Shown here piece after piece: positions 9,614-63,807 of a stretch of DNA of 64,000 nucleotides (position 1 is its first letter; each line of letters opens with the position of its first letter). The DNA lies in NCBI RefSeq assembly GCF_023017165.1, contig NZ_JALKBW010000001.1:248001-312000 (forward strand), given 5' to 3'. The position numbers and the translations under genes were made by a program. This stretch comes from Gordonia alkaliphila (lineage in GTDB: Bacteria; Actinomycetota; Actinomycetes; Mycobacteriales; Mycobacteriaceae). The notes beneath the pieces were generated by a model. That model saw only the letters and a program-made list of their open reading frames with translations. It searched no databases and had not been told where the DNA came from.

Positions 9614-9628
9614 CGGACTCCTCGCTCG

Positions 9629-47071: not shown

Positions 47072-49219
47072 TTACTGCTGATCCCGGATATAGGTCACCC
47101 CGAATGCCCGCACTTGACGAAACTCCTGACGTGTACTGCCGAAGTCGAACCAGCCGCCATCCTGCTTTTGGAAGATATCGAGGCCGCGACCGAGGTTGAT
47201 GCGCCATCCGTTGTCCGTGCGGATCCAGCGATCGTGGCCACCGGGGTCCTTGCCCACTTCAAGCTTGATGCCTTGGTGCGCCGCTCCCTGCATGATCTGG
47301 TTGAGCATCTGCAGCTGTCTCTTCTGAATCTCAGCGTCTGGGTCAAGCACGGTGAAGAGCTTGACCGTCACCTCGTCTGCGGGGTCCTTGGCCGACGCGA
47401 TCGAGGCCAGCAGTTCAACGAGGTTCCGGCCTTGGTGGCTCAACCGAATATACGGATCATGCAACTCGATCTCGGCTGCTCCCCGTAAGTACGGCATAAG
47501 GAGGGTCTCGTAGGAGACGCCGCGTTGATTCTCAACGAAATCTCGGTGCCCTTCACGCAATTCCTTCTCAACGGGGGCAGGAACGGCCGTGACCTCCGAG
47601 CCGCCCGCACCCATCGAGGGTGGGGTCGGCAGATCAAGATCGTTGCTTTTCGCCGCAGCGCCGGGGCGATTGCGGTGGTAGTGCGCCGGGTACTGGTTTT
47701 CCTCCAGGGTCGTGACGGCCGTCCACTCACCGTCGAGGGATCTGTACCCGAATTTCACCGCGGCCATGGTGTCGTCCATGCGCAAAATCTGGTCCTTGAC
47801 ACGCTTTCGGCCCTCGATCGCGAAGAGCAGAATCTCCTCGATCTCCTCGGCGGTAGCCTCCTCGTGTGGGTAGAGCAGCTTCATCAGGCCGGAGAAGGTC
47901 TTGTGGATCCCATCGCGGTCGCGGGTGGAGATATCCGGGCCGAGCGAGAAGTGCTGCTGGTAGCGATCGGAGTAGTCGAGGTTCCTCATAGATTTGAGGA
48001 CTTCGGCGATGTAGTCGACGACGAAACCGTAGCCACTGGAGAACATCTCGCCGCGGATCGTGTCGATCTCCCAGCCCGGAATATAGCAATGCAGCCGATC
48101 GAGGTAGGCCGGGTCATGGTAGCTCTCTGGAAGCTCGTCGAAGAGATCGGAGTGCTTGAGCATGTAGGGCACAGTACGCGAGGTGTTGCCGACGAAAACC
48201 ATCGATGCCTCCGCTCCGAGCGTCTCGACGCCGCGGGAGAAGGACTTGTTCGCCATGTAGTTCTTCATGATGTCGACCAGCGCCTTGTCGGCGCGCTTCT
48301 TCTTACCCGCGAACTCGTCAAAGGCGACGACGTCCCAATACCCGACGAGGCCGATCTTCCCGTTGGCGTTGTTCACGAACAGCTTCGGCACCGTGATCTC
48401 ACCGCCGGAGATCAGCATGCCATGGGGCGAGAACTCCGAGTAGATGTGCGATTTTCCGGTGCCCTTCGGGCCGAGTTCAACGAGGTTGTAGTTGCGTTCT
48501 GCAAATGGGATCAGCCGGATAAGCTGAAGCAGCTTCGCGCGGCGGCCGAACATCTCGGGGTTGAAGCCGATCGACTGGATCAGGAGGTCAATCCACTCAT
48601 CGGTGGTGAACTCGGCCCGCGCGGCGAGGTAGCCGTCGTAGTCGAAACTCGACATCTGGATCGGCTGCAATCGGCCCAGAATCCAGGGCGTCGCACGGGC
48701 GTCCTCGCTGTGGAAATACTCGATGTCACACAGGCACCAGACGCCACCCACCAGGAGTTTCTGGTTCGCGTTCACCGTGCTCGGCTCCACCAGCACGCCG
48801 CTGATGCCGAGGTTCGCGAACGACGCCTCATAGACGTCGGCCTTCTCGTTCAGAGTCACGCTGACCCGGTCGATAATCCGGAAGCGACCCTTCTCACGGA
48901 TCTTCGACTTCACCAACTCGGACTGGTTGCGGTGCACGTAGTGCTCGGCCAGGATTCGGCGCACCTTCTCGATGCCCTCCTGGATCGTCGCCTCGTCGTC
49001 AGTCGCGGCGAACTGCCCGAGCAGGTACTCCAGCACATACGACGGCACGATCGCGTTGCCTTTGACTGCCTTGACGAGGTCCTTCCGCACCACCGCTCCC
49101 GGGAAGTGCGCGTTGATCTTGCGGTCCAACGCCGTCGGCTCCGCCACGGTGTCGGCAGGGCCCTCATCGGGTGACTGGCCGACAATTGCCGCCTCGGTCA
49201 GGTCGATGTGGTCGCTCAT
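47072..49219 (-). CDS. brxL: BREX protein BrxL, Lon-like ATPase
   Basis: 715 residues. An AAA+ domain with Walker A GPKGTGKSH (about 254-262) and Walker B VVAFDEFAG is followed by a Lon-type C-terminal part. BrxL is the last core gene of type 1 BREX and is needed for phage restriction; it forms rings on DNA. The start ATG 49219 shares one base with the pglZ stop (TGATG), so the two are co-translated. Cytoplasmic. The gene is intact and ends 159 bases from the convergent steroid dehydrogenase, giving the left edge of the BREX locus. Confidence 0.9.
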   Translation of the reverse strand: MSDHIDLTEAAIVGQSPDEGPADTVAEPTALDRKINAHFPGAVVRKDLVKAVKGNAIVPSYVLEYLLGQFAATDDEATIQEGIEKVRRILAEHYVHRNQSELVKSKIREKGRFRIIDRVSVTLNEKADVYEASFANLGISGVLVEPSTVNANQKLLVGGVWCLCDIEYFHSEDARATPWILGRLQPIQMSSFDYDGYLAARAEFTTDEWIDLLIQSIGFNPEMFGRRAKLLQLIRLIPFAERNYNLVELGPKGTGKSHIYSEFSPHGMLISGGEITVPKLFVNNANGKIGLVGYWDVVAFDEFAGKKKRADKALVDIMKNYMANKSFSRGVETLGAEASMVFVGNTSRTVPYMLKHSDLFDELPESYHDPAYLDRLHCYIPGWEIDTIRGEMFSSGYGFVVDYIAEVLKSMRNLDYSDRYQQHFSLGPDISTRDRDGIHKTFSGLMKLLYPHEEATAEEIEEILLFAIEGRKRVKDQILRMDDTMAAVKFGYRSLDGEWTAVTTLEENQYPAHYHRNRPGAAAKSNDLDLPTPPSMGAGGSEVTAVPAPVEKELREGHRDFVENQRGVSYETLLMPYLRGAAEIELHDPYIRLSHQGRNLVELLASIASAKDPADEVTVKLFTVLDPDAEIQKRQLQMLNQIMQGAAHQGIKLEVGKDPGGHDRWIRTDNGWRINLGRGLDIFQKQDGGWFDFGSTRQEFRQVRAFGVTYIRDQQ

Positions 49220-51723
49220 CAGAAATCCCATCCGTCGTCGCCGGCGAAGGCGCGTTTGATCGTGTACGGCGCGCTCTTGTACTTTTTCCACTGGTCGGTG
49301 CCCTCGATCGGCTCCGAGAGCCGGAACTCGACGCTGTGGTTGTTGGCCTCGTCCGCCTCCTTACTGAGAAGCAGGGTGACGCTTTGGAATCGGTCACGTC
49401 CCGCGTCGCTGCTCGAGTCGAAGGTCATCTCCGGTTCGTCGGAAATCAGGGTCTCTCCGAAGTAGAGGCCGGCCCGCAGACGCCGCGCGGGTTTGTGCGG
49501 CTCCACTTTCGCCGATTGGTACAGCTTGACGACGACCTGTCCGGTCGTGATCCGATCCGACTCGGGGTGGATGTCGACGTTCACCGGCTCCACCGTGTCG
49601 CTGCGGCTCTTGTTGATCGCGACCACCGGCACCACGATCTCCTGCAGTGACGCACCGCCGTGCACGAACTGGTATCCGGCTCCGGGTTGCACGATCCGCT
49701 GGATCGAGTTCGGGATCTGCACTTCCAGATCGCCCGCCAGTCCCAGTTGATCGGCTTGGAAGGTCGTGAACGCGGAGTCCTTCTTCAAGCCGCGCCCCAG
49801 GACGTAGCGGCGCTTCGACTTCACGATCTGTTCGCCCTGCGGCTTCACCGTCAGGTTGAACTGCTCAGCCAGCTTGGACCGCTGGTAGAGGAACCCGTGA
49901 TCGGCGGTGACGATGATGTTCGTCGCGTTCGCACTCGCGAGCTTCTTGACGATGTCGATCAGTTCGCGGACCGCATCCGCTGCCGCCATGAAGGTTCGGT
50001 GCTCGGAGACGGCTTTGTCGCCGGTCGCGTCGATCGTGTCGTGGTAGACGTACAGCACCTGATTGGACGAGTACAGGTCACGCCGGTCGGCAGGCTTCAT
50101 GGCGAGGAAGTCCGTCGCCTGGATCGCGCAGCCACCGACCGCGCCGAGGATCTTGCTGCGATTCGCGGTGCCGTCCGACTTCTGCTCGTCCACCAGCACT
50201 ACGTCGCCTTCTGCGGAATGTGCCAGCGTGGTGTGCGGGAGCAGCGCCGCCATCCCGAGTTGCGTGTACGACGGCAGCACTCCGAGCATCGCCTCGATCG
50301 ACGCGGAGAATTTGTTCTCACCGCGGATTCTGCTGCTCAGTTCTTCGGCAACCTCGTAGCGGAGCGCGTCGGAGACGATCACGACGGCCTTCTTTCGGCC
50401 CGTGAGGGTCGGGGCGACGTAGTGGTCGTAGAACGACGATTGCGCGGTGAGCCCGGTGGTGCGCCACTGTGCGACCGTGTCGACCTGCTGCTGCCACGCC
50501 ACCGCCAGCGGGACGAGGAAATCGGTGACATAGGCGTTTTCGACGAGCTCGGCCAGTGCTTCGATCGGCTGTTTGAACTCGGCCGTCAGGTAGGCCTGGG
50601 TGAACTGTCGATAGCGCTGGTCGATGCGGAACCACTCGTCGCGATAGCGCGTCAGGCCGTCGTCGAAGCCGGTGACCTGGAGCACGGCGTTCCGGATGGC
50701 CGGCAGCAGCTCGGCCGCGGCGCTCAGCGCCGCGTACAGGGTCGCGTAGTCGTCGAACCAGAAGCTGTCGCGGCGCCTGCTGCTGATCGCATCGACGATG
50801 CCGCGATGCGACATCGTCTTCACGCTGATCCCTTCGACGAGACGCCGGATCACCTCCCGCTCACTGGCGTCGAAGACGTCGGTTTCCAGCAATGCTTCCC
50901 ATTCGATCTCACCGACGCGATCGGGGTAGTCGAGGTCGCGCTCGACGGTGCGGGCCAGCGACTTCATCGCTGCACTGCTGCGTTTGGAATCGCGGAAGCC
51001 GCGGAAGTCGAGCGCCAGGTTCCTGACCTTATTCGACTCACTGACGTCGAACCCGCCAACCGCGCGCTGAAACATCCACAGCACCAGCCCCGCCATTGTC
51101 GGCGCCTGCGACGTGAACCCGTAGATGTCGGAGGCTCCGCGCCAGTAGAAGTCCGCGAGGCCGTGGGAGGCCAACGCAGCGAATCCGGAGGTGTCGCCGT
51201 CGGAGTGCTGGATCAACAGCGTGCGGGTGAGTTCGGAGAAGCTGTGTTCCTTCTGGTTCAGCAGGACGGCACACATCTGCGCCTGCACCACCGTCACATC
51301 GTCACCGATCAGTGGTAGCGCCTTGAGCCGGGTCACCAGCTTCGCGTCGTCGAAGAACGACGGGTAACGGTTGATCAGTTCTTCGGAGCCCGGCGCGGTG
51401 AGCCCGAGATCGGACCGCAGGAGCGCGCCGCGGTCGGCAGTGAACACCGGACCGTAGGTCAGCTCGACGTCGAGCAGCCAGTTCCCGACGCCCTCGGGCA
51501 CATCGCCGGAGCGGTAGATCAGGAACTTCGCTGCCGGCTCGTCACGCAACACCCGGTGTTTGATCGTGAACTCGTCGTCGGAGACCCGCAGCACCGTCAC
51601 GTCGCCTGGCGCGAGAGTGTCGAGTTCGGTCGCGTAGCTGCCGTCCGGGTCGTGCCATACGACGATCCTTCCGGCGTCGAAGCGATCCGCGAGGTGGTCG
51701 GCGATCGTGGGAGCCTTGCTCAT
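49219..51723 (-). CDS. pglZ: BREX alkaline-phosphatase-fold protein PglZ
   Basis: 834 residues. The PglZ domain in the C-terminal half carries the metal-binding segments VSDALRYEVAEELSSR and TADHGFLYQRS (alkaline phosphatase superfamily). The N-terminal portion is the PglZ-specific helical region (IVVWHDPDGSYATELDTL). PglZ is the signature of BREX systems and partners PglX; loss abolishes defence. Start ATG 51723 with GAGGA close upstream. Overlaps the brxL start by one base. The 120-base gap to rhuM holds no gene. Confidence 0.92.
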   Translation of the reverse strand: MSKAPTIADHLADRFDAGRIVVWHDPDGSYATELDTLAPGDVTVLRVSDDEFTIKHRVLRDEPAAKFLIYRSGDVPEGVGNWLLDVELTYGPVFTADRGALLRSDLGLTAPGSEELINRYPSFFDDAKLVTRLKALPLIGDDVTVVQAQMCAVLLNQKEHSFSELTRTLLIQHSDGDTSGFAALASHGLADFYWRGASDIYGFTSQAPTMAGLVLWMFQRAVGGFDVSESNKVRNLALDFRGFRDSKRSSAAMKSLARTVERDLDYPDRVGEIEWEALLETDVFDASEREVIRRLVEGISVKTMSHRGIVDAISSRRRDSFWFDDYATLYAALSAAAELLPAIRNAVLQVTGFDDGLTRYRDEWFRIDQRYRQFTQAYLTAEFKQPIEALAELVENAYVTDFLVPLAVAWQQQVDTVAQWRTTGLTAQSSFYDHYVAPTLTGRKKAVVIVSDALRYEVAEELSSRIRGENKFSASIEAMLGVLPSYTQLGMAALLPHTTLAHSAEGDVVLVDEQKSDGTANRSKILGAVGGCAIQATDFLAMKPADRRDLYSSNQVLYVYHDTIDATGDKAVSEHRTFMAAADAVRELIDIVKKLASANATNIIVTADHGFLYQRSKLAEQFNLTVKPQGEQIVKSKRRYVLGRGLKKDSAFTTFQADQLGLAGDLEVQIPNSIQRIVQPGAGYQFVHGGASLQEIVVPVVAINKSRSDTVEPVNVDIHPESDRITTGQVVVKLYQSAKVEPHKPARRLRAGLYFGETLISDEPEMTFDSSSDAGRDRFQSVTLLLSKEADEANNHSVEFRLSEPIEGTDQWKKYKSAPYTIKRAFAGDDGWDF

Positions 51724-51843: not shown

Positions 51844-52850
51844 TCACTCATCGGACTTCTCCTCGGCCTTCGCTTCCAGCGCCCGCAGCGCCGCTAGGTC
51901 TGCCGCATCGGCTTCCAGCGCGGCCTGCTTCTTTCGGGCCGAATCGAACTCGACGTAGCGTTCCTCTGCGAGCGCTTGAGCAACCTTGGCCTGCACGGTT
52001 CCGGCGTGGGTGAGGAGCTCGCGGTCGTTGAAGGCGAGGAACGCGTCGAGTTTCTTGGTCCAGTCGGCCATCGTCATGGCGACGCGGCGTTTGGCCTGGT
52101 CCTCCGCGTAGTCGAGTACATGGTCACGACCCGGTCGAGTTCGCGGATCTCGTCACTCGCGAGGTAGTTCTTCGCGGTGACGACATCGCCCTTGCGGACC
52201 ACGGAGCCCGACCAGGTGGTAAGACCCATGTTCGGTGCGGTGGGGTCGCTGCGTACCTTCACGATCTCGGCGGCCGTGTGGCCGGTGACGGCCCAGAGCA
52301 TCCTGTTCTGGACGGTCGCGAAGAACGTCTGCGAGGCAGGCGACTTCGAGTCGTAGTCGATCGAGGTCGCGTACAGGTCACGGACCTTCTGGTAGAAGCG
52401 CTTCTCGGAGGCCCGGATGGAGCGGATGCGCTCCAGCCACTCGTCGAAGTAATCCCACCCGTCGGAGGCTTTGAGCTTGGCGTCATCCATCGCGAAGCCC
52501 TTGACGAGGTACTCGCTTAGCACGCTGGTGGCCCACTGCCGGAACTGCACGGCGCGCGGCGATGTGGAGCGGTACCCGACGGCGAGCACCATGTCGAGGT
52601 TGTAAATCTTCACCTCGCGACGCACCTGCCGGGTGCCTTCGACGCGAACTACTAACTCAGAATTAATAGTTGCCTCGGTCACCTCACCATCGTCGAGAAT
52701 TCGCTTGATCGTCTGGACGACGTTGGGCACCGAAGTGGCGTACAGCTCAGCGATCTGCGCCTGGGTGAGCCAGACCGTGCCGTCCGATGCGCGCAGTTGC
52801 ACCTGTGCGCCGTCGTCGGACTGGTACAGGATGATCTCGCCGTCACTCAT
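51844..52850 (-). pseudogene. RhuM-family protein, split by one-base frameshift
   Basis: The RhuM (virulence protein) sequence starts at ATG 52850 (EIILYQSDDGAQVQLRA, then TVWLTQAQIAELY and KYNLDMVLAVGYR-type segments). After ELDRVVTMY it runs into STTRRTRPNAASP and stops at 52074. Adding one C at about 52116 (TACCTC instead of TACTC) continues it as LDYAEDQAKRRVAMTMADW into the frame ending at 51844, giving about 335 residues, the usual RhuM length. The start overlaps the end of the preceding pglX piece by 8 bases. RhuM proteins are frequent accessory genes in restriction and BREX loci; function unclear. Sequencing error not excluded. Confidence 0.8.
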
Positions 52851-53805
52851 CGGCCGCCTCCAGGCCGGCGATCTTCTTCACCGCCGGGTAGAACTTCGGG
52901 TAGTTCACCTTGACGCCGTCGTCGAGGTCGATGTCGATCTGCCGGGTGGCCAGCGGGTAGAGCACATCGTGCTCGTAGTCGCGCAGTTCGGCCAGCACCT
53001 TCCGCAGCCGGTCGGCTTCCTTCTGGTCTTTCGCTGATGATCCGCCGGCGGCCGCCGCCTCGGCCCGTTCGAGGGCCTTCTGCAGTTTGTTCTCGTACTC
53101 GCGCAGGTACTCGTTGAGCACAGTCGAGACGGTCGCCGGCGTGTAGCGGTGCAGGTAGATGAGCGCGTTGAAAGAACCTTTGGGGCTGGAGAACATCCAG
53201 TAGATCGGGCGCTTCTTGTAGCGCTTGATGTGATCGTCGTAGAACTTCGACTTGCCCGACTTGGTGATGAAGTAGTCGCGCAGTGTCTTGACGCCCAACG
53301 TCTCCTCGGCAAACCGCAGGTTCTCCTCGAAGTGCTCCGCGCCGAACGCCACCTTAAGGAACTGCCGGAATCGCTCGACGATGTCGTCCTCGAACCAGCC
53401 GTCGTCGACGAACGGGATCACGTTGTCGGTGTCTGGCATGAACGCTGGCGAGGGCACCTTCGCGAGGTAGTCCTGCAGCGTTGCACCTTGGTCGGCAAGG
53501 ATCAGCCCCGGCTCGTCGAGGCTGTAGCGGCCGAACATGCAACCGACGGCATACGAGGCGAGATCCACAATGGCGGACTCCGCGAACAGGGCGTCGCGTT
53601 CCTCGGGTGTCTTGTTCGGCCACCGGAACGCGGAGTTATTGGTGAGGGACACGCGTTCGAGCGGAACATGCGACGGTACTTCGTCCTCGAGTCCGTAGAG
53701 TCGCGCGACGGCCTCGTTGTTCTCGATCTCCAGCCGCTGCTGAGCGCGCGACCGCGCCGCCCACTCGTCCCGATGCTGCGCAACAGTCTGTTCAAGCGTC
53801 TTCAA
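52843..53805 (-). CDS. PglX C-terminal domain, detached from PglX
   Basis: 320 residues that match the conserved C-terminal end of type 1 BREX PglX (ENNEAVARLYGLEDEVPSHVPLERVSLTNN, SGKSKFYDDHIKRYKKRPIYW, FNALIYLHRYTPATVSTVLNEYLREYENKLQK). Full-length PglX is about 1200 residues; 874 upstream plus these 320 make 1194. The piece is separated from the rest by the silent cassette and recombinase. It can be expressed alone: TTG 53805 has AAGGA 5 bases upstream, and the frame upstream is closed by TAA. Its end overlaps rhuM. It may be a second subunit of PglX. Confidence 0.82.
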   Translation of the reverse strand: MKTLEQTVAQHRDEWAARSRAQQRLEIENNEAVARLYGLEDEVPSHVPLERVSLTNNSAFRWPNKTPEERDALFAESAIVDLASYAVGCMFGRYSLDEPGLILADQGATLQDYLAKVPSPAFMPDTDNVIPFVDDGWFEDDIVERFRQFLKVAFGAEHFEENLRFAEETLGVKTLRDYFITKSGKSKFYDDHIKRYKKRPIYWMFSSPKGSFNALIYLHRYTPATVSTVLNEYLREYENKLQKALERAEAAAAGGSSAKDQKEADRLRKVLAELRDYEHDVLYPLATRQIDIDLDDGVKVNYPKFYPAVKKIAGLEAADE

Positions 53806-53862: not shown

Positions 53863-53865
53863 GGA

Positions 53866-55172
53866 TAGCCATGGGGGTAGCCGAAGTGAGCCTCCCCAGG
53901 CTACCGGGAGAGGCCGACCATCTTCGCGGACACGGCGAGCGCCGCTCGAGTTCTCTCGTGATCGGTGTGCAGGTACGGCTGGGTACTCAGCACGGACGAA
54001 TGCCCGAGCACGGCCTTGATGGTGGTCTCGTCGATCCCGTTGGCCAGGAGCAGCGTGGCCGCCGTGTGCCGCGCCTCGTACAGCAGTGGCCTTCGACTGC
54101 TGCCATCGGGGAGAGTGACCGTCACGTTCGCCTCCTCGGCGATCTGGTACCAATGCCGCCGGTCCAGTTCCGCGGATCGAGGGGTGCCGTCACTGCGGGG
54201 CCAAACGAGCCCGCTGGGAGACGACGGTGCGCGGTCTGCCCACGATGCGAGTGCTTCGGCGAGCCACGGCACGAGCGGGATGACCCGGCTCCCGGCGCGG
54301 GTCTTCGGCCGGACCAGATGGTAGGCCCCGTGGAGGTGCCGGGACTCGAAGCCCCGGGGAACCCGGAACCCGCTCTCGGGTTGCCTGAACTCGACATACG
54401 GCAGCGCTTTGAGCTGCCAGGCCAGCGTCATCGTCTCGGCGTCGAGATCCACCATGTCCCAGGTCAGCCCCAGCGCCTCGGCGGGACGCAGACCTTCCAC
54501 GAGCGCCGCGACCCATCGTGACGCATCGGGGCGGTTCGTGGCCACGGCGAGGATTCTTGCTGCCGCGGCGGCACTGAGCGCCTGCCGTGGGGAGTGCCCG
54601 GCACCAGGACTACCCGCCTCCCGGACATTCTGCGGGACCCGGTATCCCTCGGCGACCGCGTCGGAGAGGATCTTACCGAGCACCGCGTGCGTGCGCTGCA
54701 TTGTGGCGAGGGCAAGCCCGGCGTCCTCTTGGGCCGAGATCAGCTTCCGGATGTCAGCGGGCACGAGCGCATCGAGGCGTAGATGCCCGATTGTCGGCAC
54801 GATCCAGCGGTTCACCCCCGACCGATCCGAGACGTAGGTGCCCGGCCGCACGATGCGCTGCCGATGTTCGAGCCACCGGTCGGCCCACCGCTTGACCGTG
54901 ATGCTGCCGAAGGTCCGGGCGGTAGACCCCTCGGCGGCGATCCGCTGTTGAGCCTCGGCGAGCCGCTGGCGGACTGCGGCCTCGGTGCGTGCTTTCAGCG
55001 TGATACGGCGACGCCCACCGCGCTCGGTCCAACCGGCTTCGATCGAGGCGACCCACTGCCCCCGCGAGTTCCGGTAGACCGACCCTATTCCTTTGCTGCG
55101 CTGCTTGAGCCTGGACATGAATCCACGGTAGGAGCCGCCGCGCTGATCATCGGGGTAGCCATCGGGGTAGCC
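53866..55172. repeat. 17-bp direct repeats flanking the tyrosine recombinase gene
   Basis: TAGCCATGGGGGTAGCC (53866-53882) and TAGCCATCGGGGTAGCC (55156-55172) match at 16 of 17 bases in the same orientation and bracket the recombinase gene within about 35 bases on each side. The right copy has a second, partly overlapping GGGGTAGCCATCG unit. They could be recombinase arm/core sites or the scar of insertion of the recombinase gene. Confidence 0.75.
53901..55118 (-). CDS. Tyrosine recombinase/integrase next to pglX
   Basis: A 405-residue phage-type tyrosine recombinase. The N-terminal basic arm-binding domain (GIGSVYRNSRGQWVASIEAGW) and SAM-like core-binding domain (FGSITVKRWADRWLEHRQ) precede the catalytic domain: first Arg in EGLRPAEALGL, the second in LLYEARHTAATLL (Arg and His kept; the usual first His is Tyr), LGHSS and nucleophile Tyr in TQPYLHTD. 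Start taken as ATG 55118 (SRLKQRSKG); the frame is open back to 55265. No other phage genes are present. Placement next to the inverted pglX cassette points to a DNA invertase role. Confidence 0.87.
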   Translation of the reverse strand: MSRLKQRSKGIGSVYRNSRGQWVASIEAGWTERGGRRRITLKARTEAAVRQRLAEAQQRIAAEGSTARTFGSITVKRWADRWLEHRQRIVRPGTYVSDRSGVNRWIVPTIGHLRLDALVPADIRKLISAQEDAGLALATMQRTHAVLGKILSDAVAEGYRVPQNVREAGSPGAGHSPRQALSAAAAARILAVATNRPDASRWVAALVEGLRPAEALGLTWDMVDLDAETMTLAWQLKALPYVEFRQPESGFRVPRGFESRHLHGAYHLVRPKTRAGSRVIPLVPWLAEALASWADRAPSSPSGLVWPRSDGTPRSAELDRRHWYQIAEEANVTVTLPDGSSRRPLLYEARHTAATLLLANGIDETTIKAVLGHSSVLSTQPYLHTDHERTRAALAVSAKMVGLSR

Positions 55173-55176
55173 ATCG

Positions 55177-56361
55177 ATGGTGGCCAACGCAGCCCGGCGA
55201 CGTGATGTGGGACGGCTGCGCGCGCACCCCGGTGAACCGACGGGGCTCTTCGCAACACAGTTCATGAAGGACGAATTCCCGGACGTGAAGCAGGACCTCT
55301 ACGGCGCGTTCGTCGTTCGAGGCATTGAACTTGCACACGATGCTGGACTGCTCGCCATTGTCATCGGCGACACGTGGATGTCGATCAAGTCATTCGAGGC
55401 ACTACGGCTTCGCTTGCTGAACGGCCACGCATTCGGCTCCTTCGTCCACATGCGTGACGTCTCCAACCACCCAGACATCTTTGGCGCCAACGCCGCCTTC
55501 GTCCTCTCAATGGCAGGTAACCGCAGCCGCCGCGCCCCCTTCATCCGCCTGACGCCACTCGGCTCCGACCGCAAGGAGCACGATCTACGGATTGCTCTTG
55601 CCCAGCGGACGGAAGGCACGGGTTTTCATCTCGCCTCGGGGGCCGACTTCGCGGCCATCCCCGGCTCCCCGATTGTCTACTGGCTCAGTGAAAAGATGCG
55701 GGCCGCTTTCGCAACTGGTACTCCGCTTGGCCACGTTGCAGCTCCCCGCAAGGGCATCGACACCGGCGAAAACGCCGAGTTCCTACGTATGTGGTGGGAA
55801 GTGTCTTGTCGCCAACTTGCAGTCGACGGAGCTCATCAAGGTAAGTGGCTTCCCTACAACAAAGGCGGAGGTTTCCGACGCTGGTACGGAAACCGTGACG
55901 TCGTCGTGAACTGGGAGTTTGACGGCGCGGCGATCCGGGCCCGAAAAGACTGGGCGTCCCGAAAGCCAACTCTAAGAAACCTCGATTTCATGAAACGAGA
56001 AGGATTCTCGTGGGGAACTGTTTCTTCCGGCGGCTTCTCCGCGCGATATACGCCCCCGGGCGCACTTTTCGATAACGGTGGCTGCACTCTATTCGCAGAT
56101 CAGGGGCTTGGCAGGCTGGGTGCGTTCCTGAACAGCACGGCGAATGACCTATTCTTAGGGTTCTTGGCGCCCACGCTGAATTTCCAGCCTGGCGACATCG
56201 CATTGGTTCCGCTAGCTCCAGGACTCAACACCCTTGACATCGAGGCTGCCGAGTGCATACAGAACGCCCGGGATGATTACGATTCCTTCGAGGATTCATG
56301 GGACTTTTCCTGGAACCCACTCGTTCGGAGAGCATGTGATTCAGCTAGCCGGTTGGACTAG
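55177..56361 (+). pseudogene. Silent inverted PglX specificity cassette
   Basis: From about 55256 the frame encodes an alternative to PglX residues 485-874: QFMKDEFPDVKQDLYGAF, GFHLASGADFAAIPGSPIVYWLSEK, FLRMWWEVS, APTLNFQPGDIALVP and a WDFSWNPLV end, then a short divergent tail and stop. It lacks the methyltransferase N-terminus (no DPACGSG or NPPY motif). The preceding 80 bases (ATG 55177 onward) are unrelated and have no ribosome-binding site, so it is probably not expressed as it stands. Its GC content and codon use are lower than its surroundings, as is typical of DNA-recognition domains. It overlaps the active pglX end by 17 bases, head-on. Confidence 0.88.
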
Positions 56362-57516
56362 TCGGCAATCCGATCTCCCGGCAGCCGAGCGCAACGAGTG
56401 GGTTCATCTCAAAGTTCCACGATGTTTCAGACGAATCCCAGTCATGCTCTGACGTGTCGCCCAGGCGCGTCACTCCATCGGTGAGGAAGCCGTCGGCGCT
56501 CGGGGGCACTGGCACTGCACCCAGATAGCCGGGATGCAGGTTCAGAGTCGGATTTATCGCCGCGAGCAGCACCGAAGCCACCTGCGAGTTGAGAATCGCG
56601 AGATGCACGTCATCATTGTCCGACTGGCACAACCCTGCGGCAGCGTCGAACAGAGACCCTCTGGGCGCCATACGAAACGATTGCTCGCCCGAGGTGACAA
56701 CTGTCCACGCAAGACCCGGCCGAAAGATGCGATCGAGGTTCAAGTTGGTCGCACGAACCCTAGATCCATCTGTAGTCAAGGTTGTCTGGAGACGTCGCCC
56801 ATCGTCCTCCCAATCGACGACGGAGTCCATGTTCCCGGCCCACCTGCGAAACTCGCCTCCCTTTGCGTACGGGAACCACCGTTTTCCCGATAGCTGCGCG
56901 TCGTCGCGACCTGCAAAGCCAAATCCAGTATTGGCTCGCGAGACCTCCCACCAGAAGCGCACGAACGTAGCGTTGTCCGCCGTCACGAGGCCCTTAGCAG
57001 AGCGTGAGCGCTTCGCAAGGGCTGGCGAATCCCTAAACACAGTACGGATCTTTTCACTGAGCCAGTAGACAATCGGGGAGCCAGGGATGGCCGTGAAATC
57101 TGCGTCCGACGCCAGGTGGAAGCCTGCAGCCTTGGTCCGGACCTCAAGGGCAGTTCTCAGCGCGGCGACCTTCTCCGCTTCTGACGTCCCATCGACGAGG
57201 CGGATGAAGGTGCCCGCACGCTCGCGGGCAGCACTTCGACTCTCCGGCGGCACGTTCTCCAAGACGAACGCGGTCGAGGAGACAACCTCGCCACCGATCG
57301 AGTCGAAGGCGCGAGCGCCGAGGTGCAGCATCGAGACGATTCGCTGCTGTGCAAGAAGGGAGGCTCGGAGCTTCTCGTAGGAGCTGAGGAACATCCATGA
57401 CTGCATGGTGATCATTGCCGCCGCTCCACGCGGCTGTGCGAGGGTGGCGCAGCGTTCGATGAAGGCGGCAAAGAGGTCGGACTTGCCGTCCGGGTACTCG
57501 TCCTTCATGAACTGTG
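55256..57516. repeat. Invertible segment bounded by pglX inverted repeats (IR1-IR3)
   Basis: IR1: CACAGTTCATGAAGGACGA at 55256-55274 on plus and exactly on minus at 57498-57516. IR2: 35 bp perfect at 55663-55697 and 57048-57082, extended to 46 bp with one mismatch (55652-55697 and 57048-57093), encoding AIPGSPIVYWLSEK. IR3: GAACCCACTCGTT at 56313-56325 and 56393-56405. All keep the reading frame of PglX, so crossing over at IR1 or IR2 would give in-frame chimeras with swapped specificity. Sequence between the repeats is much less similar. Confidence 0.88.
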
Positions 57517-58969
57517 CAAGGGGCGCACTCATCTGCTTCGCGCCCATGTACGGCGGGTTCGCGGTGACCACCGAGTACCGGCGACTCAGCATCTCGGCCT
57601 GCGCAACAGCCCTGCGCGCGCGAAGAAGCGTGTCGTAGTAGAAGGTCGCTTCCTGGTCCTTGAGTCCTTCCAAGACCACTGCCGCCTGTGCGGTCGCGTC
57701 CGCATCCGGTCGGATCAGCGATCCGAACGTGTCGGCATCGCGGAACTGATTCCAGAACGATTCTTCGGCGTCGCGGTCGCCGTCTTTCGTGACGAGCAGG
57801 TCCAGCTCATCGGGGGTGAACGAGATCGGCTCGATCACGCAGATCTTCGGGTTTCGCCGGGGCTCAGCCCGCGAGGCCGAGCGGGTGAAGTAGCGACGGT
57901 CCTTCGCGCGGGCCTTCATGGTGAGCGCGAAGGCAGCGAGCGCCCCGGCGCGGGGATCGATCTCGGTGCCGTGCAGGTTGTGGGTGAGGATTAGGCTCGG
58001 GATCTCCGACGGCGCGTAGCCTTCCTCCTCGTAGATCGCGTACAGCAGGTCGAAGGCGTAGGTGAGCATGTGGCCCGAGCCGCAGGCCGGGTCAATCACC
58101 GTCAGCTCTTCCGGGCCCGAGACCGTCAGAAAGTCGGTTTCCTCCTCGACGGGCGCGATGTAGTAGTCCATCTGCTCGACCAGTCGCGAGGCCGGCCGGT
58201 TGAGCATCCACAGCCGGCCGAGTGAGTTCTCCACCAGGTAGCGGACGATCCAGTGCGGGGTGAACAGCTGTGTGGCGGCCGGGATCTCGTCGGCGCCGGC
58301 CTTCTTGTTTCTCTTGAACCCGGCGAAGACCTCGTCTTTCCGCTCGGAGATGTAGAACTGGTAGAGCCAGCCGATCACCTCGACGTCGTCGCAGACGTCC
58401 TCGGTGAGGACCTCGCGGGCCCGGGACAGGACGGAACCGTCGGCGAGCAGGCCGGCGGGCACCAATAGTTCGGTGTACGCGCCCTCGGCCTCGAACATGA
58501 ACGGCATCGTCTTGTGCCAGTGCCGGCAGTACTCGGTGAGCAGCAGCGCGTAGGCCTCGCCCTCGGCGTCGGTGCTGCGGCGGGTGCCGTCCAGCAGGTC
58601 GATGATCAGCTCGTGTGCGCGCGCACCGACCACCTCGGTGTCGAGATCGCCGCGTTTGGCGTCGGCGAGGATCTCCGGCTGGCCGTGGGCCTGACCCGAC
58701 GCCGGCGAGACGACCCCGGCGTCGGTGTAGCCGCGAGCGTCCATGAAGCGCAATGCGATGAGGCGGTTGAACCAGGTGTAGGCGACCCTGTCGATCACGT
58801 GCTCGCGGCCGTGCTCGGCGATCTCCGATTCCAGGGCGCGCACGGTGTCGGCGCGCTCACTGCGTGCGACGGACCCGGCGGCGAGCACCGTCGATACCCG
58901 TGCCTCGACGGCGACGATCAGTTCGCGGCGGGCAGCCTTCGCGAAACCTTCCAGGGGCTTGGTGTCCAT
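56345..58969 (-). CDS. pglX: BREX DNA methyltransferase PglX, N-terminal and specificity parts
   Basis: 874 residues. Adenine-N6 methyltransferase: SAM motif DPACGSG at D293, catalytic NPPY at N471. The part before about 485 is conserved; 485-874 is the invertible specificity half, with IR2 at about 626-641 and IR3 near 855-859. It ends after NPLV with a 15-residue tail (ALGCREIGLPTSPTG) instead of continuing into the usual C-terminal domain, which is encoded at 52843-53805. PglX methylates host DNA as the self mark of BREX. The start is ATG 58969 with AAAGGA, 43 bases after brxC. Lower GC in the variable part. Confidence 0.9.
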   Translation of the reverse strand: MDTKPLEGFAKAARRELIVAVEARVSTVLAAGSVARSERADTVRALESEIAEHGREHVIDRVAYTWFNRLIALRFMDARGYTDAGVVSPASGQAHGQPEILADAKRGDLDTEVVGARAHELIIDLLDGTRRSTDAEGEAYALLLTEYCRHWHKTMPFMFEAEGAYTELLVPAGLLADGSVLSRAREVLTEDVCDDVEVIGWLYQFYISERKDEVFAGFKRNKKAGADEIPAATQLFTPHWIVRYLVENSLGRLWMLNRPASRLVEQMDYYIAPVEEETDFLTVSGPEELTVIDPACGSGHMLTYAFDLLYAIYEEEGYAPSEIPSLILTHNLHGTEIDPRAGALAAFALTMKARAKDRRYFTRSASRAEPRRNPKICVIEPISFTPDELDLLVTKDGDRDAEESFWNQFRDADTFGSLIRPDADATAQAAVVLEGLKDQEATFYYDTLLRARRAVAQAEMLSRRYSVVTANPPYMGAKQMSAPLAQFMKDEYPDGKSDLFAAFIERCATLAQPRGAAAMITMQSWMFLSSYEKLRASLLAQQRIVSMLHLGARAFDSIGGEVVSSTAFVLENVPPESRSAARERAGTFIRLVDGTSEAEKVAALRTALEVRTKAAGFHLASDADFTAIPGSPIVYWLSEKIRTVFRDSPALAKRSRSAKGLVTADNATFVRFWWEVSRANTGFGFAGRDDAQLSGKRWFPYAKGGEFRRWAGNMDSVVDWEDDGRRLQTTLTTDGSRVRATNLNLDRIFRPGLAWTVVTSGEQSFRMAPRGSLFDAAAGLCQSDNDDVHLAILNSQVASVLLAAINPTLNLHPGYLGAVPVPPSADGFLTDGVTRLGDTSEHDWDSSETSWNFEMNPLVALGCREIGLPTSPTG

Positions 58970-59012: not shown

Positions 59013-62000
59013 TCAGAGGGTGATGCGCTTGTTGTCGCTGATCGTCGCGAGCAAAATCGCGCGAAGCTGATCCAGGTAGGCATCGACCTGCTCCTCGGTT
59101 TCGAGGACCCCACCTGCGCCCGGCAGCGCGAGCTTCCTGATCGAAATGCTCTGCTTCACCGGGGGTGTCGGCTTGTCCGGAATCTGTGTCTTACCGTCGT
59201 CGGAGCCCTCTGGCCCGGCAGCCGACGCAGCTTTCGATGCTTCGAGCTCGTCGAGGATCGCGGGATAGACCGTGTCGTCGAATTGCGCAGCAAGGTGCCG
59301 GATCGTGGGGATCTGCGCTTCCTGCTGGACGCGCGCCAGCATTTGCTCGGCCTGTCGGGTCACCGACTGACGAGCAGTCTCCGTGGCGGCCGCATACGCC
59401 GCGCTCACCGGAACCTGCTTCCAGTAGTCATCGATCTTGGACGTTGCTGCGGCCCGCTCAGCCACAATCACGTCATCGAGTTGCTCCCGCACGGCTTCGA
59501 CCGCATTGCCGAGCTTCGTGGTCTTGTTGCCGCGGAAGATCTGAGCGTCGTCGAGTGCGCTGGCGATCCCGTCAGCGATTCCAGCGGGCAGATAAGCGAG
59601 GTTGGTGCTGTTCGCCTGCATGAAGGCGTTGGCGTCGTCGTAGATGGTGCGCTGATTGCCGTTGAGGAACGCCTTGATCGGATCGATCACATTGTCTTTC
59701 GCGTCCAGCAGATCGCCGGCGCCGGCGAAGTTCTCGACGAACCAATCCGCCGGATTGCTGCTGAGCTCGGCCAGGAGTTCGATCGGTTCGTCGAGCTGAG
59801 CGATGAACGGGTAGCCGCCGGCGCCCGAGCGCAGTGCCTTCAGCTCGGCGAGTCTGGCTTCGAGGTGTTCCTTGCCGACGCGGCCGAGTTCGGCGGCATC
59901 CTTGGTGACGGCGCCGTCGTCGGTGAACTCGATGACGAACTTCCGGAACAAGTTCACCACCTTCTGGTCATAGACTCGCTGCGGAGCGACGATCAGATTC
60001 GGGTACCGCTGGGTATTGCGCAGCGCCCCGACGGTCTCCGTGCGCGCGAGAGTCTTCCCGTCGAGAAGGATCTCGATCTTCGCCTGCCCCGCGAGATAAG
60101 CGACCACGGCCGCGACCGACCATTGGTCCCAGCCGTACGGTTTGGTGGTGTACCGCTCGACGAGCTGCTTCATCGTGACCATCTCGTGCCGCTTGCCCCG
60201 CATCGCCAGATGAGCGAGCACATCGTCGGAGGGAACGTCGAGGTGCCCGCCGATTCCGTCGAGCGCATCGTCGATCGGGTTCACCAGCCCACCCAGATCC
60301 TGCTCCCCGAAGGTCTTCCCGCCGAGCATGCCCAGATTGGTGTAGGTGGCCGCGATGACCTTCCCGAAACCGTCGTTCACGCGCATCTGCGGGTCGGTGG
60401 CACTCGCCTCGAGGACACCGGCATTGTGGATCAGGGTCGACGACCCCACGGCAGCCCGGAGACGTTCGACGATCTCCTTCTCCCGCTCGGCATTTTGAGA
60501 ACCCTTCTCGCCGAGGATCCGAGTCTCGACCGCCGTGCGACTGGAGCCCTGAGCCCGCTTGACGTACTTCTCCGTCTTCAGCAGCAGTCGCAGATCGGCG
60601 AGGATCCGGTTGGCTTCCACCGGAAGCGCCACCCGGAGCTCATCGAACCCGGCACTCTGCATCTTGATCTGTTCCAGAGAAAAATCGGTTTCGGGGCTGA
60701 TGAAGTGCAGCGACAGTTCGTACTGCTTGCCGTACGGAACACCGTCGAGTTTGTAACCGAACGGGAAGATCTGGCCGTTCTTGGCGGTGGCCTTCGTGGT
60801 CTTCACCACCGACTCGGCGAGCAACTTGTTGAGTTTCGCGGAGACCTCCGCACTGTCGATGTCGACGTCCTTGATCTCCTGCTCGATCTTCTGCTCTTCG
60901 TTGGTCAGATAGTCGTACAGGTCGCCGTTTCGCTGGATGTAGGTCTGCGCCTCCAACGTGTTCAGCGCCTCGACGACATCCCGGCCGAGCTGCGTCAGGT
61001 CGGTTCCGAAGCGGTCGTAGACGAGCACCGTGAGGTTACGGGGCGTGGCTTTGAAGCTGTCGACGTACTTCACGAGAAACAGCGCCTTGAGCAGCCGCAC
61101 CGCGAGTGCGCTGAGTTTGCCACTGTCGCGAGCGTTCTCGGCGCTCAGGATCGCGCGCTGATTCGCGGACTTGAGCGATGCCCGGATGCCCTCGAACATC
61201 CGATCGAAGGATGCGAGGGTGCCGAGCGGCCGGCCGGTGAGGCCGATGGCGACTTCCTGCACGACGCCGAGCATGGAGCGTTCACCGACCGAGCTGTTGC
61301 GGCCCTCGAAGAGGTTGTGGTCACTGATCGACTCGATTGCGGCCTGGAACAGCGGGAACTGGTAACTCACGAACGGGTAGGTACCGACGAAGTGCTGCTC
61401 GTCGCGGTAGTTCGGGTAGTGCCGGCCCTCGACGAAATCAAACAGGGTCTTGAAGTTTGCGTGCTCCGCGCTGTAGATCGCCTCGACCTCGGTGCTCGCG
61501 CGATCAGTCTTGGCCAGCAGACGCTTGCGAATGACCTCCTCGACGTCCTGGCTGGTGAGTTTGAGCCGGTTCTTGAAGCGGGCCTGGATCTTGGAGAAGT
61601 CGTTGGCCTGCTGTTTGGTGCGGTCGCCGCCAACCTTCTCCATGTCCTCCTGCGAGGTCACGAAGATCCACGCCCGCCCCCGGCATTTGGTGGCCAGCGA
61701 TTCGGCGATGGTCTGAAGGTTCAGCATGAGCTGGGTGTTGGCTCCGATGAACTGGCCCACCTCGTCGACGAAGAAGTTCAGCCGGTAGCCGTCAGGCTGC
61801 CGGTCGAGCCAGGCCGCGACCTCGTCAGCGAAATCTTCGATCGAGACCGAGTAGTTCGCGCTGTACTGGCGGATGATGCCGGGGCTCTCGGAACCGTTGA
61901 CCTCGGCGAAAGCGGCGTCGATGTTGCCTGCTTCGAGCGCCGCCTGTTCGCGCCCCTGGGTCCAGGGGATACCCGCGATCCGCTCGAAGGACTCCTGAAA

Positions 62001-62540
62001 GGCGGTGTACTGGCCTCGAGAGTCGAGGTCGCGTTCGAAACGGGCGATGTGACCCTGGTTGCCGTAGTAGCCGCGGGACTCGTCGAAGATCTTCACGAAC
62101 ACCTTCAGCAGGGCGTCGTTCTGGTCCTTCGAGATCAGGGTGGCCTTCTGATCGATGTTGAACAGCAGACTCTTCGCTTCGATCCGCGCGGCCTTGTCGA
62201 TCAACGGCGGCAGGAATGCATCGTCGGCCTTCGCCTGGAACTGGGCGCAGACATCGGCACGCGGGTAATCGTGGCCGTCGATGTCGCCGAGGAGATGGGC
62301 CAGCATCTTCAGCAGATGCGACTTGCCCGAGCCGAAGAAGCCGGAGATCCAGACGCCATTGGCGTTCGTGTAGTTCGTGTACGCCTCCAGCACCTGCTCG
62401 ACGCCCTTGGCGGCCTCGTTGGTGAGGACGTATTCCTCCACCTCCGTCGCGAGCTGGGAGGTGTCGTCGGCCTTGATGACGCCCTCGATCGAGCGGTCGA
62501 TCGGTTTGGCGAAGATCTCGTTGATCGTGGTCACAGTCAT
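59013..62540 (-). CDS. brxC: BREX ATPase BrxC
   Basis: 1175 residues, the length of BrxC/PglY ATPases. Walker A is GFFGSGKSH (about 67-75), Walker B NFFVDEVGQFIG. N-terminal MTVTTINEIFAKPIDRSIEGVIKAD is characteristic. BrxC is the core ATPase of BREX complexes. ATG 62540 overlaps the brxB stop (ATGA, 4 bases). The strong AGGAGG lies only one base before this ATG, so the in-frame GTG at 62534 (VTTINEIF) could be the true start. Intact frame. Confidence 0.93.
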   Translation of the reverse strand: MTVTTINEIFAKPIDRSIEGVIKADDTSQLATEVEEYVLTNEAAKGVEQVLEAYTNYTNANGVWISGFFGSGKSHLLKMLAHLLGDIDGHDYPRADVCAQFQAKADDAFLPPLIDKAARIEAKSLLFNIDQKATLISKDQNDALLKVFVKIFDESRGYYGNQGHIARFERDLDSRGQYTAFQESFERIAGIPWTQGREQAALEAGNIDAAFAEVNGSESPGIIRQYSANYSVSIEDFADEVAAWLDRQPDGYRLNFFVDEVGQFIGANTQLMLNLQTIAESLATKCRGRAWIFVTSQEDMEKVGGDRTKQQANDFSKIQARFKNRLKLTSQDVEEVIRKRLLAKTDRASTEVEAIYSAEHANFKTLFDFVEGRHYPNYRDEQHFVGTYPFVSYQFPLFQAAIESISDHNLFEGRNSSVGERSMLGVVQEVAIGLTGRPLGTLASFDRMFEGIRASLKSANQRAILSAENARDSGKLSALAVRLLKALFLVKYVDSFKATPRNLTVLVYDRFGTDLTQLGRDVVEALNTLEAQTYIQRNGDLYDYLTNEEQKIEQEIKDVDIDSAEVSAKLNKLLAESVVKTTKATAKNGQIFPFGYKLDGVPYGKQYELSLHFISPETDFSLEQIKMQSAGFDELRVALPVEANRILADLRLLLKTEKYVKRAQGSSRTAVETRILGEKGSQNAEREKEIVERLRAAVGSSTLIHNAGVLEASATDPQMRVNDGFGKVIAATYTNLGMLGGKTFGEQDLGGLVNPIDDALDGIGGHLDVPSDDVLAHLAMRGKRHEMVTMKQLVERYTTKPYGWDQWSVAAVVAYLAGQAKIEILLDGKTLARTETVGALRNTQRYPNLIVAPQRVYDQKVVNLFRKFVIEFTDDGAVTKDAAELGRVGKEHLEARLAELKALRSGAGGYPFIAQLDEPIELLAELSSNPADWFVENFAGAGDLLDAKDNVIDPIKAFLNGNQRTIYDDANAFMQANSTNLAYLPAGIADGIASALDDAQIFRGNKTTKLGNAVEAVREQLDDVIVAERAAATSKIDDYWKQVPVSAAYAAATETARQSVTRQAEQMLARVQQEAQIPTIRHLAAQFDDTVYPAILDELEASKAASAAGPEGSDDGKTQIPDKPTPPVKQSISIRKLALPGAGGVLETEEQVDAYLDQLRAILLATISDNKRITL

Positions 62541-63160
62541 GCCTCCTGCTCCAGGATGTCCTTGGCCCGGTAGTAGTTGTCACTCGCGCCCAGGTTCAGC
62601 GCGCGGAGCTGGTGTCCGGCCGACTGGGTGAACTCGTACGTCCCGGGAAACCACGTCAGCATCGGGTGTCCCACCACCACGCTCTGCAAGTTCTCCAGCA
62701 CCGTGTGTGTGCGGATGAACGGAAACACCTCGCCGCTTCCAGTGAGGAAGACGACGGTCGTGTTGGGCTCGGTTCTCGGCTCGACGTCCAGCCGGGCGCG
62801 GATCGCCGGGGCGAGGTGATCGTGAGGATCGAGCATGCCCTGGAGCATCTCGCGGAATTCGATCTTGTCCATCACCGGCTCCGCCTGGAGAACGCGGTCC
62901 CAGACCCCCCGCTCGGTGAGGAGTTCGACAGCGAGATCGTAGAGATTGATCTCGACCACGCTGATCCCCTCATCGCTCTGCAGCTTCGTGGTGACCCGAC
63001 CACGCATGGCGTCGACGTCGAGTGCCCAGGCGGGCGGGAAGTGATAGATGAAGAAGGGCACCTCCTTGGAGAGACCCTCCATCCTCAAGAACCGGTCGCT
63101 GCGCAGCACGTTGTAGACATGCGTCTCGTCGTGAGCGAGGTTTCGCTGGGTCGATCTCAT
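62537..63160 (-). CDS. brxB: BREX protein BrxB (DUF1788)
   Basis: 207 residues of the DUF1788 family, found only in BREX. Segments KEVPFFIYHFPPAWALDVDAMRG, VVEINLYDLAVELL, VVFLTGSGEVFPFIRTHTVLENL and MLTWFPGTYEF are typical. Role in the BREX complex is structural or regulatory and not well defined. ATG 63160 overlaps the brxA stop by four bases and its own stop overlaps brxC, giving a tightly coupled brxA-brxB-brxC unit. Confidence 0.92.
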   Translation of the reverse strand: MRSTQRNLAHDETHVYNVLRSDRFLRMEGLSKEVPFFIYHFPPAWALDVDAMRGRVTTKLQSDEGISVVEINLYDLAVELLTERGVWDRVLQAEPVMDKIEFREMLQGMLDPHDHLAPAIRARLDVEPRTEPNTTVVFLTGSGEVFPFIRTHTVLENLQSVVVGHPMLTWFPGTYEFTQSAGHQLRALNLGASDNYYRAKDILEQEA

Positions 63161-63807
63161 CGCTGCACCTGACTGCCTGAGGAGGTGAATGGTGTGGTCG
63201 TCGGGAAGAATCGGAGGTCACTGGGCGTGCGGCGGTCCAGGATCTCGGCGACACGCTCGGACATCACGGCGGGGACGATGGCGCCGGCATCGGTACACAA
63301 ATCTGCCTCGCGGAGCATCCGGAACAACGTCTGCCGAAGCTTCTGCCGCGTCGACGGTTTCAGGTCGTCGAGCTCGGAATGCCAGAGACTCTTGCCCGCA
63401 ATGAACCGGTCGAAGTCGTCGGTGTCGAGCGTCGGCGTCATCAGCAGAAACCGCTCGCGCAGCACCTCTTCGGCGAAGTCCCCGATCAGCGTGTAGCGAC
63501 GGCACGCCGCGGCCCACATCAGATGATGCTGTTCCGTAGGGCTGCTATCGACAAGCAGTTCGATTTCGCCATCGTCGAGCGCCTCAAGTCGCTGAATGGT
63601 CTCGCGTGCGAGTCTGATCAGCGATGAGGTGCTACGGGCCTGCAAAAGGTTCTCGTCGACCACTCGGGCACGGGCCGCTTGCCAGTCGCGAGAGTCGAGG
63701 TAGACCGCGGCGATGATTTCACCCTCACGGGACAGGAGGCCTCCGCTGGTGAACGACAATGCATATCGCGGGTGCACTTCCTTGTCCACCTGCCGCAAGT
63801 CCCCCAT
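63157..63807 (-). CDS. brxA: BREX protein BrxA (DUF1819)
   Basis: 216 residues of the DUF1819 family, with the N-terminal YALSFTSGGLLSREGEIIAAVYL and conserved LLMTPTLDTDDFDRFIAGKSLW. BrxA is a DNA-binding helical protein resembling NusB-like folds and opens type 1 BREX operons. The ATG 63807 has AGGAG directly before it with no spacing, so translation initiation may use a nearby codon or coupling to ychF, whose stop lies 18 bases upstream. First gene of the BREX operon. Confidence 0.9.
   Translation of the reverse strand: MGDLRQVDKEVHPRYALSFTSGGLLSREGEIIAAVYLDSRDWQAARARVVDENLLQARSTSSLIRLARETIQRLEALDDGEIELLVDSSPTEQHHLMWAAACRRYTLIGDFAEEVLRERFLLMTPTLDTDDFDRFIAGKSLWHSELDDLKPSTRQKLRQTLFRMLREADLCTDAGAIVPAVMSERVAEILDRRTPSDLRFFPTTTPFTSSGSQVQR

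Follow-up and report, generated by a model that had tools for sequence, protein, structure and literature searches.

A probable invertible, two-module specificity switch in a type 1 BREX operon of Gordonia alkaliphila, with PglX encoded by two genes

The stretch of Gordonia alkaliphila DNA analysed here (64,000 nucleotides, termed the window) includes a type 1 BREX operon into which a site-specific shufflon is very probably built, with a split PglX that would be completed from two chains and could switch the motif it acts on. In the mechanism that we propose, two alternative central PglX segments, each consisting of the second methyltransferase part and the target-recognition domain (TRD), are arranged tail to tail and flanked by inverted IR1 sites; an internal pair of inverted IR2 sites divides the segments. 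An adjacent tyrosine recombinase would invert the DNA between like sites. Inversion at IR1 would swap the whole segment, inversion at IR2 would swap only the recognition-domain half, and both together would swap only the methyltransferase half.

The operon occupies the minus strand of the window in the order brxA (63157..63807, Pfam PF08849), brxB (62537..63160, Pfam PF08747), brxC (59013..62540, full length by PADLOC BrxC PDLC02479), pglX, and then pglZ (49219..51723, minus strand; PADLOC PglZ, Pfam PF08665) and brxL (47072..49291, minus strand; Pfam PF13337, PF20442 and PF16565). All six type 1 BREX genes are present by Pfam or PADLOC, with pglX spread over two genes. The interval between pglX and pglZ holds an inverted second pglX cassette, a tyrosine recombinase gene, a 320-aa gene (termed pglXc) and a RhuM-family gene (52074-52850). 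Accessory genes differ between operons of this type. The RhuM-family gene recurs in loci L032 and L042, and in L043 (5121-5855) it follows brxC; a YhcG/DUF1016 nuclease-like gene lies between pglXc and pglZ in the same-genus relative G032 (locus L010, 4887-5942). The BrxL of the window has an extra C-terminal MIT_C domain (phospholipase D-like) at residues 591-736.

No single PglX of about 1200 aa is encoded in the locus. Instead, the pglX ORF (56345-58969, minus strand, ATG at 58969) specifies 874 aa, and the separate pglXc gene (52843..53805, minus strand, TTG start with AAGGA ahead) specifies the constant C-terminal third. The ORF matches positions 1-870 of the 1174-position PADLOC PglX profile (PDLC02521) and pglXc matches positions 876-1173/1174 of the same profile. 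Likewise, among solved BrxX/PglX proteins the ORF aligns as far as residue 870 of the E. coli and residue 887 of the Salmonella protein, and pglXc aligns from residue 902 (E. coli, phmmer 902-1191) or 940 (Salmonella). Because the two parts cover consecutive stretches of both the profile and the solved proteins, we conclude that PglX is split into two genes. An AlphaFold2 model of pglXc of moderate confidence (pLDDT 68.6, pTM 0.65) returned six PDB matches with E values up to 0.001 in Foldseek, all of which are BrxX/PglX.

The split arrangement is kept in all 18 loci that were read, and in each of them pglXc begins with ATG, GTG or TTG, preceded in most by an AGGA- or GAGG-like stretch. The gene is well conserved, with a mean column identity of 78% over 18 sequences. 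In a survey of the class with the PADLOC short PglX model, matches came from 6 of 394 genomes; the open frame in the window measures 323 aa, and the remaining six range from 721 to 1208 aa. The original prediction had described the active cassette as the active specificity half of pglX. The cassette is indeed open, but pglX is not complete, its last third being the separate gene at 52843-53805 beyond the recombinase. The tail-to-tail layout explains this split, since each cassette must carry its own stop. Convergent cassettes that end in their own stops could not be fused to a constant C-terminal third, which would hence reside in a separate gene beyond the recombinase, and PglX would be completed in trans from two chains.

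Behind the constant N-terminal part of pglX (57517..58969, minus strand), which comprises the N-terminal domain and the first methyltransferase part to just past NPPY, the active cassette begins with its copy of IR1 (57498..57516, 13-bp core 57504-57516). It continues through module A (57068..57516), IR2 (57048..57082, core 57051-57063) and module B (56345..57050), which ends in its own stop codon, all on the minus strand. The silent cassette (55256-56361) occupies the plus strand, with IR1 at 55256..55274 (core 55256-55268), module A at 55256..55677, IR2 at 55663..55697 (core 55682-55694) and module B at 55695..56361, again closed by its own stop. The two predicted repeats are exact, IR1 over 19 bp (55256-55274 / 57498-57516) and IR2 over 35 bp (55663-55697 / 57048-57082), and the sequence between them is diverged as had been claimed, with 45% protein identity between the A halves and 38% between the B halves. 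Both the active (389 aa) and the alternative (367 aa) cassette are open and in frame from IR1. Because IR1 and IR2 are nested and keep the frame, four states are predicted behind one constant N-terminal part, in agreement with the up to four PglX variants envisaged originally.

Within the whole 3.85 Mb genome, the IR1 pattern (at most 2 mismatches) has one forward and one reverse match, as does the 20-bp IR2 pattern TACTGGCTNAGTGAAAAGAT (at most 2 mismatches), and the reversed control patterns have none. We assessed chance identity by redrawing synonymous codons from the operon's own usage, with both proteins kept, in 20,000 simulations. An identical run of at least 35 bases, the length of IR2, arose in 19 of the 20,000. 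The IR1 run alone is unremarkable under this test (P 0.28), being no longer than protein conservation gives, and the case for IR1 therefore rests on comparison between genomes. A third predicted repeat block of 13 bp, IR3 (56313-56325 / 56393-56405), was rejected as a site: the longest simulated run averages 16 bp, so 13 bp is within chance, and IR3 is without a counterpart in G032. This stretch encodes an NPLV motif common to both cassettes.

The tyrosine recombinase gene (53901..55118, minus strand, 405 aa; Pfam PF00589, PF14659 and PF22022) is where the original prediction had placed one, its start 137 bp from IR1 (55118 to 55256), and it occupies the same place in relatives; the enzyme is a probable invertase. 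Beside it are tandem pairs of a 12-bp iteron (ATGGCTACCC plus 2), one pair upstream of the gene (55153..55174, minus strand) and a second in the gap between the recombinase gene and pglXc (53863..53884, minus strand). Two such pairs adjoin the recombinase in 18 of 19 loci (window, L010 and L027-L043), either one on each side of the gene or both upstream, and one pair is present in L040. Iteron matches with at most 3 mismatches in these loci lie beside the recombinase in 37 of 38 cases. The iterons may be arm-type binding sites of the recombinase or an operator.

A scan of genome contigs for the recombinase yielded 17 loci from scattered Actinomycetota, with 72-92% identity over the best segment. 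In all 17 the recombinase lies beside pglXc or the cassettes, and with the other loci included, 19 of 19 carry a recombinase of one closely related family. The pglXc gene adjoins the recombinase in 16 of the 17 loci; in L033 the contig ends first and both cassettes are present. The arrangement recurs in at least seven named actinobacterial families and is not peculiar to a single mycolic-acid bacterium. Within the genus, pglXc has a match in 4 of 59 genomes, the window's included, and the arrangement is found in the window and in G032. At E 1e-120 the recombinase was detected in 1 of 397 genomes of the order, the window's own, and at E 1e-80 in 2 of 396 genomes of the phylum; G032 is not among the genomes reported in either search. 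Around the second phylum match, G139 (46% identity; locus L054), annotation of about 1.5 kb in each direction revealed no BREX part. The recombinase does not appear to be a plain plasmid element, as the 30 matches among 72,556 plasmid records are all below 60% identity (best rows about 32%), nor a plain phage element, as none of 24 pattern matches in viral contigs encodes a relative. Matches to pglXc in phage records number 8, all below 60% identity.

The comparison of cassettes covers 12 genomes, namely the window, G032 and ten from the scan with 17 loci, each of which has its two cassettes on a single contig. Their IR1-IR2 modules fall into three types (alpha, beta and gamma) plus one singleton at identity thresholds of 55, 60 and 65%; the window has alpha in the active and beta in the silent position. 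In the alpha/beta pair, alpha is active four times and beta once; in the alpha/gamma pair, alpha is active three times and gamma once; the beta/gamma pair occurs once in each order, and the singleton is paired once with gamma. Thus the three pair types each occur in both orientations, which is a comparison between species only, with one genome per species. The inverted alleles that the original prediction sought in an alignment of related genomes are present in this form. Every one of the 12 genomes carries two different types and none carries the same type twice (P 0.018). On a tree of A modules (29 rows, weakly resolved, with 3 of 26 inner branches well supported), the active or silent label needs 10 changes and shuffled labels need means of 9.4 and 9.5, with 402 and 389 of 500 shuffles as low as observed. 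Since the label changes match those of shuffled labels, active or silent position appears to have no memory of descent.

The two sides of the cassettes also reassort. The active cassette of the window and the silent cassette of Speluncibacter jeojiensis are 91% identical in module A and only 43% in module B. Among cross-genome pairs of 23 cassettes in which module A is below 50% identity, module B is at least 60% in 35 of 164 (best 82%), and in the 70 pairs with module A at 60% or more, module B spans 30 to 81%. As the modules were cut at IR2 beforehand, this reassortment shows that the two sides separate from one another and does not by itself place the breakpoint to the base.

Open cassettes number 9 of 11 in the active and 10 of 12 in the silent position, leaving 4 of 23 broken. 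Frameshifts affect the active cassettes of L027 and L034 and the silent cassette of L041, and the silent cassette of L010, that of G032, is interrupted by an insertion sequence with a DDE_Tnp_1_4 transposase (about 9617-11225). The same one-base loss beside the IR2 core is seen in L027 active (8004-8016), where it breaks the frame, and in L042 silent (9449-9461), in different families; this could be a slip product or an assembly error. Locus L042, which is not cut by a contig end, looks decayed, with the recombinase gene and brxL in pieces and no active cassette detected. Such broken cassettes and the broken recombinase of L042, together with the single orientation in the window's assembly, would fit a switch that once worked and is now locked in the window strain. 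The cassettes, recombinase and both site pairs of the window look intact, however, and we consider a locked state unlikely.

Contigs end inside the cassettes in 6 of the 17 scan loci. In G452 (Rathayibacter iranicus) two contigs end at the same IR2 base, and in G454 the first 120 bases of two contigs, which belong to module B, are almost identical. Mixed populations or repeats could cause each of these patterns, and because repeats alone could yield them we discarded the breaks as proof of mixed populations and keep them as a hint. In G452 (locus L056, about 11575), brxC is truncated near the residue matching window residue 842 and joined to a pglX cassette at IR1, perhaps by a wrong recombination at IR1 that removed the intervening DNA.

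The sites themselves are kept with a precision that the cassettes around them lack. In each of the 12 genomes the two copies carry an identical 13-bp IR1 core, CACAGTTCATGAA, and all 24 copies are alike, which is partly by choice, since the search motif permitted variation at only three positions. Its edges are sharp: the three bases just outside IR1 match between the copies in none of the 12 genomes. These outer flanks track position and not cassette type, with TTT at 11 of 12 active and CAA at 11 of 12 silent copies. The 13-bp IR2 core GGCTNAGTGAAAA is identical within the genome in all 12 despite the diverged cassettes. Its base N varies between genomes (C in 9, G in 2, T in 1) and never within one (permutation P 0.0018). 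Four further genomes have the two arms on different contigs, with IR2 readable in both arms in three; there N is again alike in both arms (G450 T/T, G452 G/G, G454 T/T), giving 15 of 15 genomes overall. Furthermore, G449 has the same deviating IR1, CACAGTTTATGAA, in both arms. As exceptions, the two arms of G450 disagree in the last IR2 core base, the TTT/CAA pattern of the IR1 flanks does not hold in G452, and the silent IR1 of L042 reads CACGGTTCATGAA, deviating from the core.

A third pair of 26-bp sites, IRx (TACTTTTCACCGTCMGTGTCATGGTC), is present inside the target-recognition domain in both cassettes of seven relatives, and a single copy is present in an eighth genome (L033); IRx is absent from the window. 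Its base M is alike within each genome (P 0.029). The invertible two-module PglX specificity switch that was originally predicted thus gains support, at the level of sequence comparison, from both orientations across genomes, from module reassortment and from core identity within genomes.

Alternatively, homologous recombination or gene conversion through RecA, in place of the adjacent recombinase, could exchange the cassettes. Both cassettes of L027 (8112-8277/9135-9300), L034, L039 and L043 hold identical tracts of 84-188 bp in module B, a sign that the two cassettes recently underwent exchange or gene conversion, and horizontal exchange could also mix modules. Yet the part common to the 12 genomes is only 13 bp at IR1 and 13 bp at IR2, with the sharp IR1 edges described above, and a closely related recombinase lies beside the cassettes in 19 of 19 loci. 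Since 13 bp is short for homologous recombination, we regard this route as improbable, although it may act in the longer repeats that some relatives have.

A further improbable account takes the repeats for no more than conserved protein motifs within a duplicated pglX fragment that is decaying, and the integrase for part of a mobile element that inserted into pglX and split it. In its favour, both repeats fall within conserved PglX motifs (QFMKDE and SPIVYWLSEK), the recombinase belongs to the phage-integrase kind, protein conservation suffices for the IR1 run alone and 4 of 23 cassettes are broken. Against it, 10 of 12 silent cassettes are open, and rare codons are kept at IR2 (AGT, 8.4% of Ser codons in these operons) and at IRx (TTT, 11% of Phe; TCA, 8% of Ser). 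The IR2 20-mer (at most 1 mismatch) has no match in the 393 other genomes of the class that were searched, some of which carry a long, unsplit PglX, and the IR2 sequence is absent from the IR2-like stretches found in 4 of 8 other PglX loci. The same arrangement, its recombinase 72-92% identical, is found in seven named families, and all 18 loci read keep a pglXc start codon.

Read in a common direction, IR1, IR2 and IRx share a half TGAA-R-R (TGAAGG, TGAAAAG and TGAAAAG, respectively). The bases that vary between but not within genomes, namely N of IR2, M of IRx and the changed base in the G449 IR1, adjoin this half. From the shared half-site and the variable bases beside it, we infer that one recombinase probably recognizes a half-site common to all three classes, with class-specific spacers that would keep the sites in register.

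The positions of the sites can be placed on the solved E. coli BrxX. The accessible part of the structural report gives its methyltransferase domain (MTD) as residues 211-650, the TRD as 651-837 and the C-terminal domain (CTD) as 838-1205, with hinge loops at 638-675; the last base pair is read by a loop at 587-601, positions 1-2 by R751, K681 and D684, and positions 3-4 by Q784 and N823 (PMC11842806). According to the same portion, activity was lost when the base-pair-6 loop was swapped in the laboratory (PMC11842806). By a hand count along the alignment of window residues with BrxX, IR1 encodes residues near 523-530, past the catalytic motif NPPY (508-511), IR2 encodes residues 654-665, the MTD/TRD hinge, and IRx aligns with window PglX 748-756, equivalent to BrxX 756-764, between R751 and Q784. 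Judging by homology from these positions, the base-pair-6 loop would fall in module A and the residues reading positions 1-4 in module B, and IRx would divide the latter residues into those for positions 1-2 and those for positions 3-4.

These placements lead us to a more specific model, which we put forward tentatively, with somewhat less than even confidence. PglX could be a two-chain methyltransferase whose recombination sites fall between the readers of different base pairs within a 6-bp target, such that IR1-IR2 would carry the reader of base pair 6, IR2-IRx those of base pairs 1-2 and the stretch from IRx to the end those of base pairs 3-4. One recombinase could act on orthogonal sites that share a half-site and differ in their spacer, four motifs would be available in the window and eight states, hence eight motifs, in the relatives with IRx, and the C-terminal subunit would dock in trans.

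Several known systems resemble this locus. In the R64-type shufflon (Rci), alternative segments are inverted behind a constant gene part, as proposed here; the present locus is set apart by description in having two cassettes with internal sites and not a multi-segment array. In lactobacilli, Goldfarb et al. 2015 reportedly described a phase-variable pglX. In L. rhamnosus LRHMDP2/3, according to the section of the report available to us, a full-length PglX (1198 aa) and a partial PglX (743 aa) are encoded with an integrase between them (PMC7513527). That arrangement shares with ours a type 1 BREX system and a second, partial pglX with a site-specific integrase in between. As far as that description goes, however, theirs includes one full-length PglX, unlike the window locus, which has none: here the ORF ends with the cassette and the constant C-terminal third is separate. 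On the same description, ours also differs in that nested site classes divide the cassette into modules and that iterons adjoin the recombinase.

In S. pneumoniae Spn556II, the accessible portion of the report describes inversions between silent and expressed hsdS at three repeat classes of 15, 298 and 85 bp, with the tyrosine recombinase PsrA adjoining the hsdS locus and acting only on IR1 (PMC4948785). Both loci, on that account, pair silent with expressed specificity sequences, with several repeat classes and an adjacent tyrosine recombinase. The repeats there are in separate hsdS genes, whereas the cassette here is the middle of a BREX methyltransferase, the IR1 and IR2 cores here measure 13 bp, and a single recombinase is the candidate to act on every class. 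We recognized no split or modularly shuffling pglX in the literature covered, which consisted mostly of titles and the beginnings of abstracts, for the most part of openly available papers. Nothing of the kind appears in the accessible portions of PMC12707154, PMC6256098 and PMC9009780, and the main text of a 2026 survey of BREX diversity is without the words recombinase, integrase, invert or split (PMC12839542). A switching pglX in lactobacilli was known before; what sets the present locus apart is a modular switch that goes with a methyltransferase split into two genes.

If the proposed mechanism operates, inversion within a clone would change the motif that is both methylated and restricted, and a population would carry several BREX specificities against phages. 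Should the base-pair readers in the modules be independent of one another, as their placement on BrxX suggests, natural swaps would test how BrxX reads DNA. No nuclease step is known in BREX, and the locus offers a direct test of how a cell lives through an abrupt switch of the mark that identifies its own DNA.
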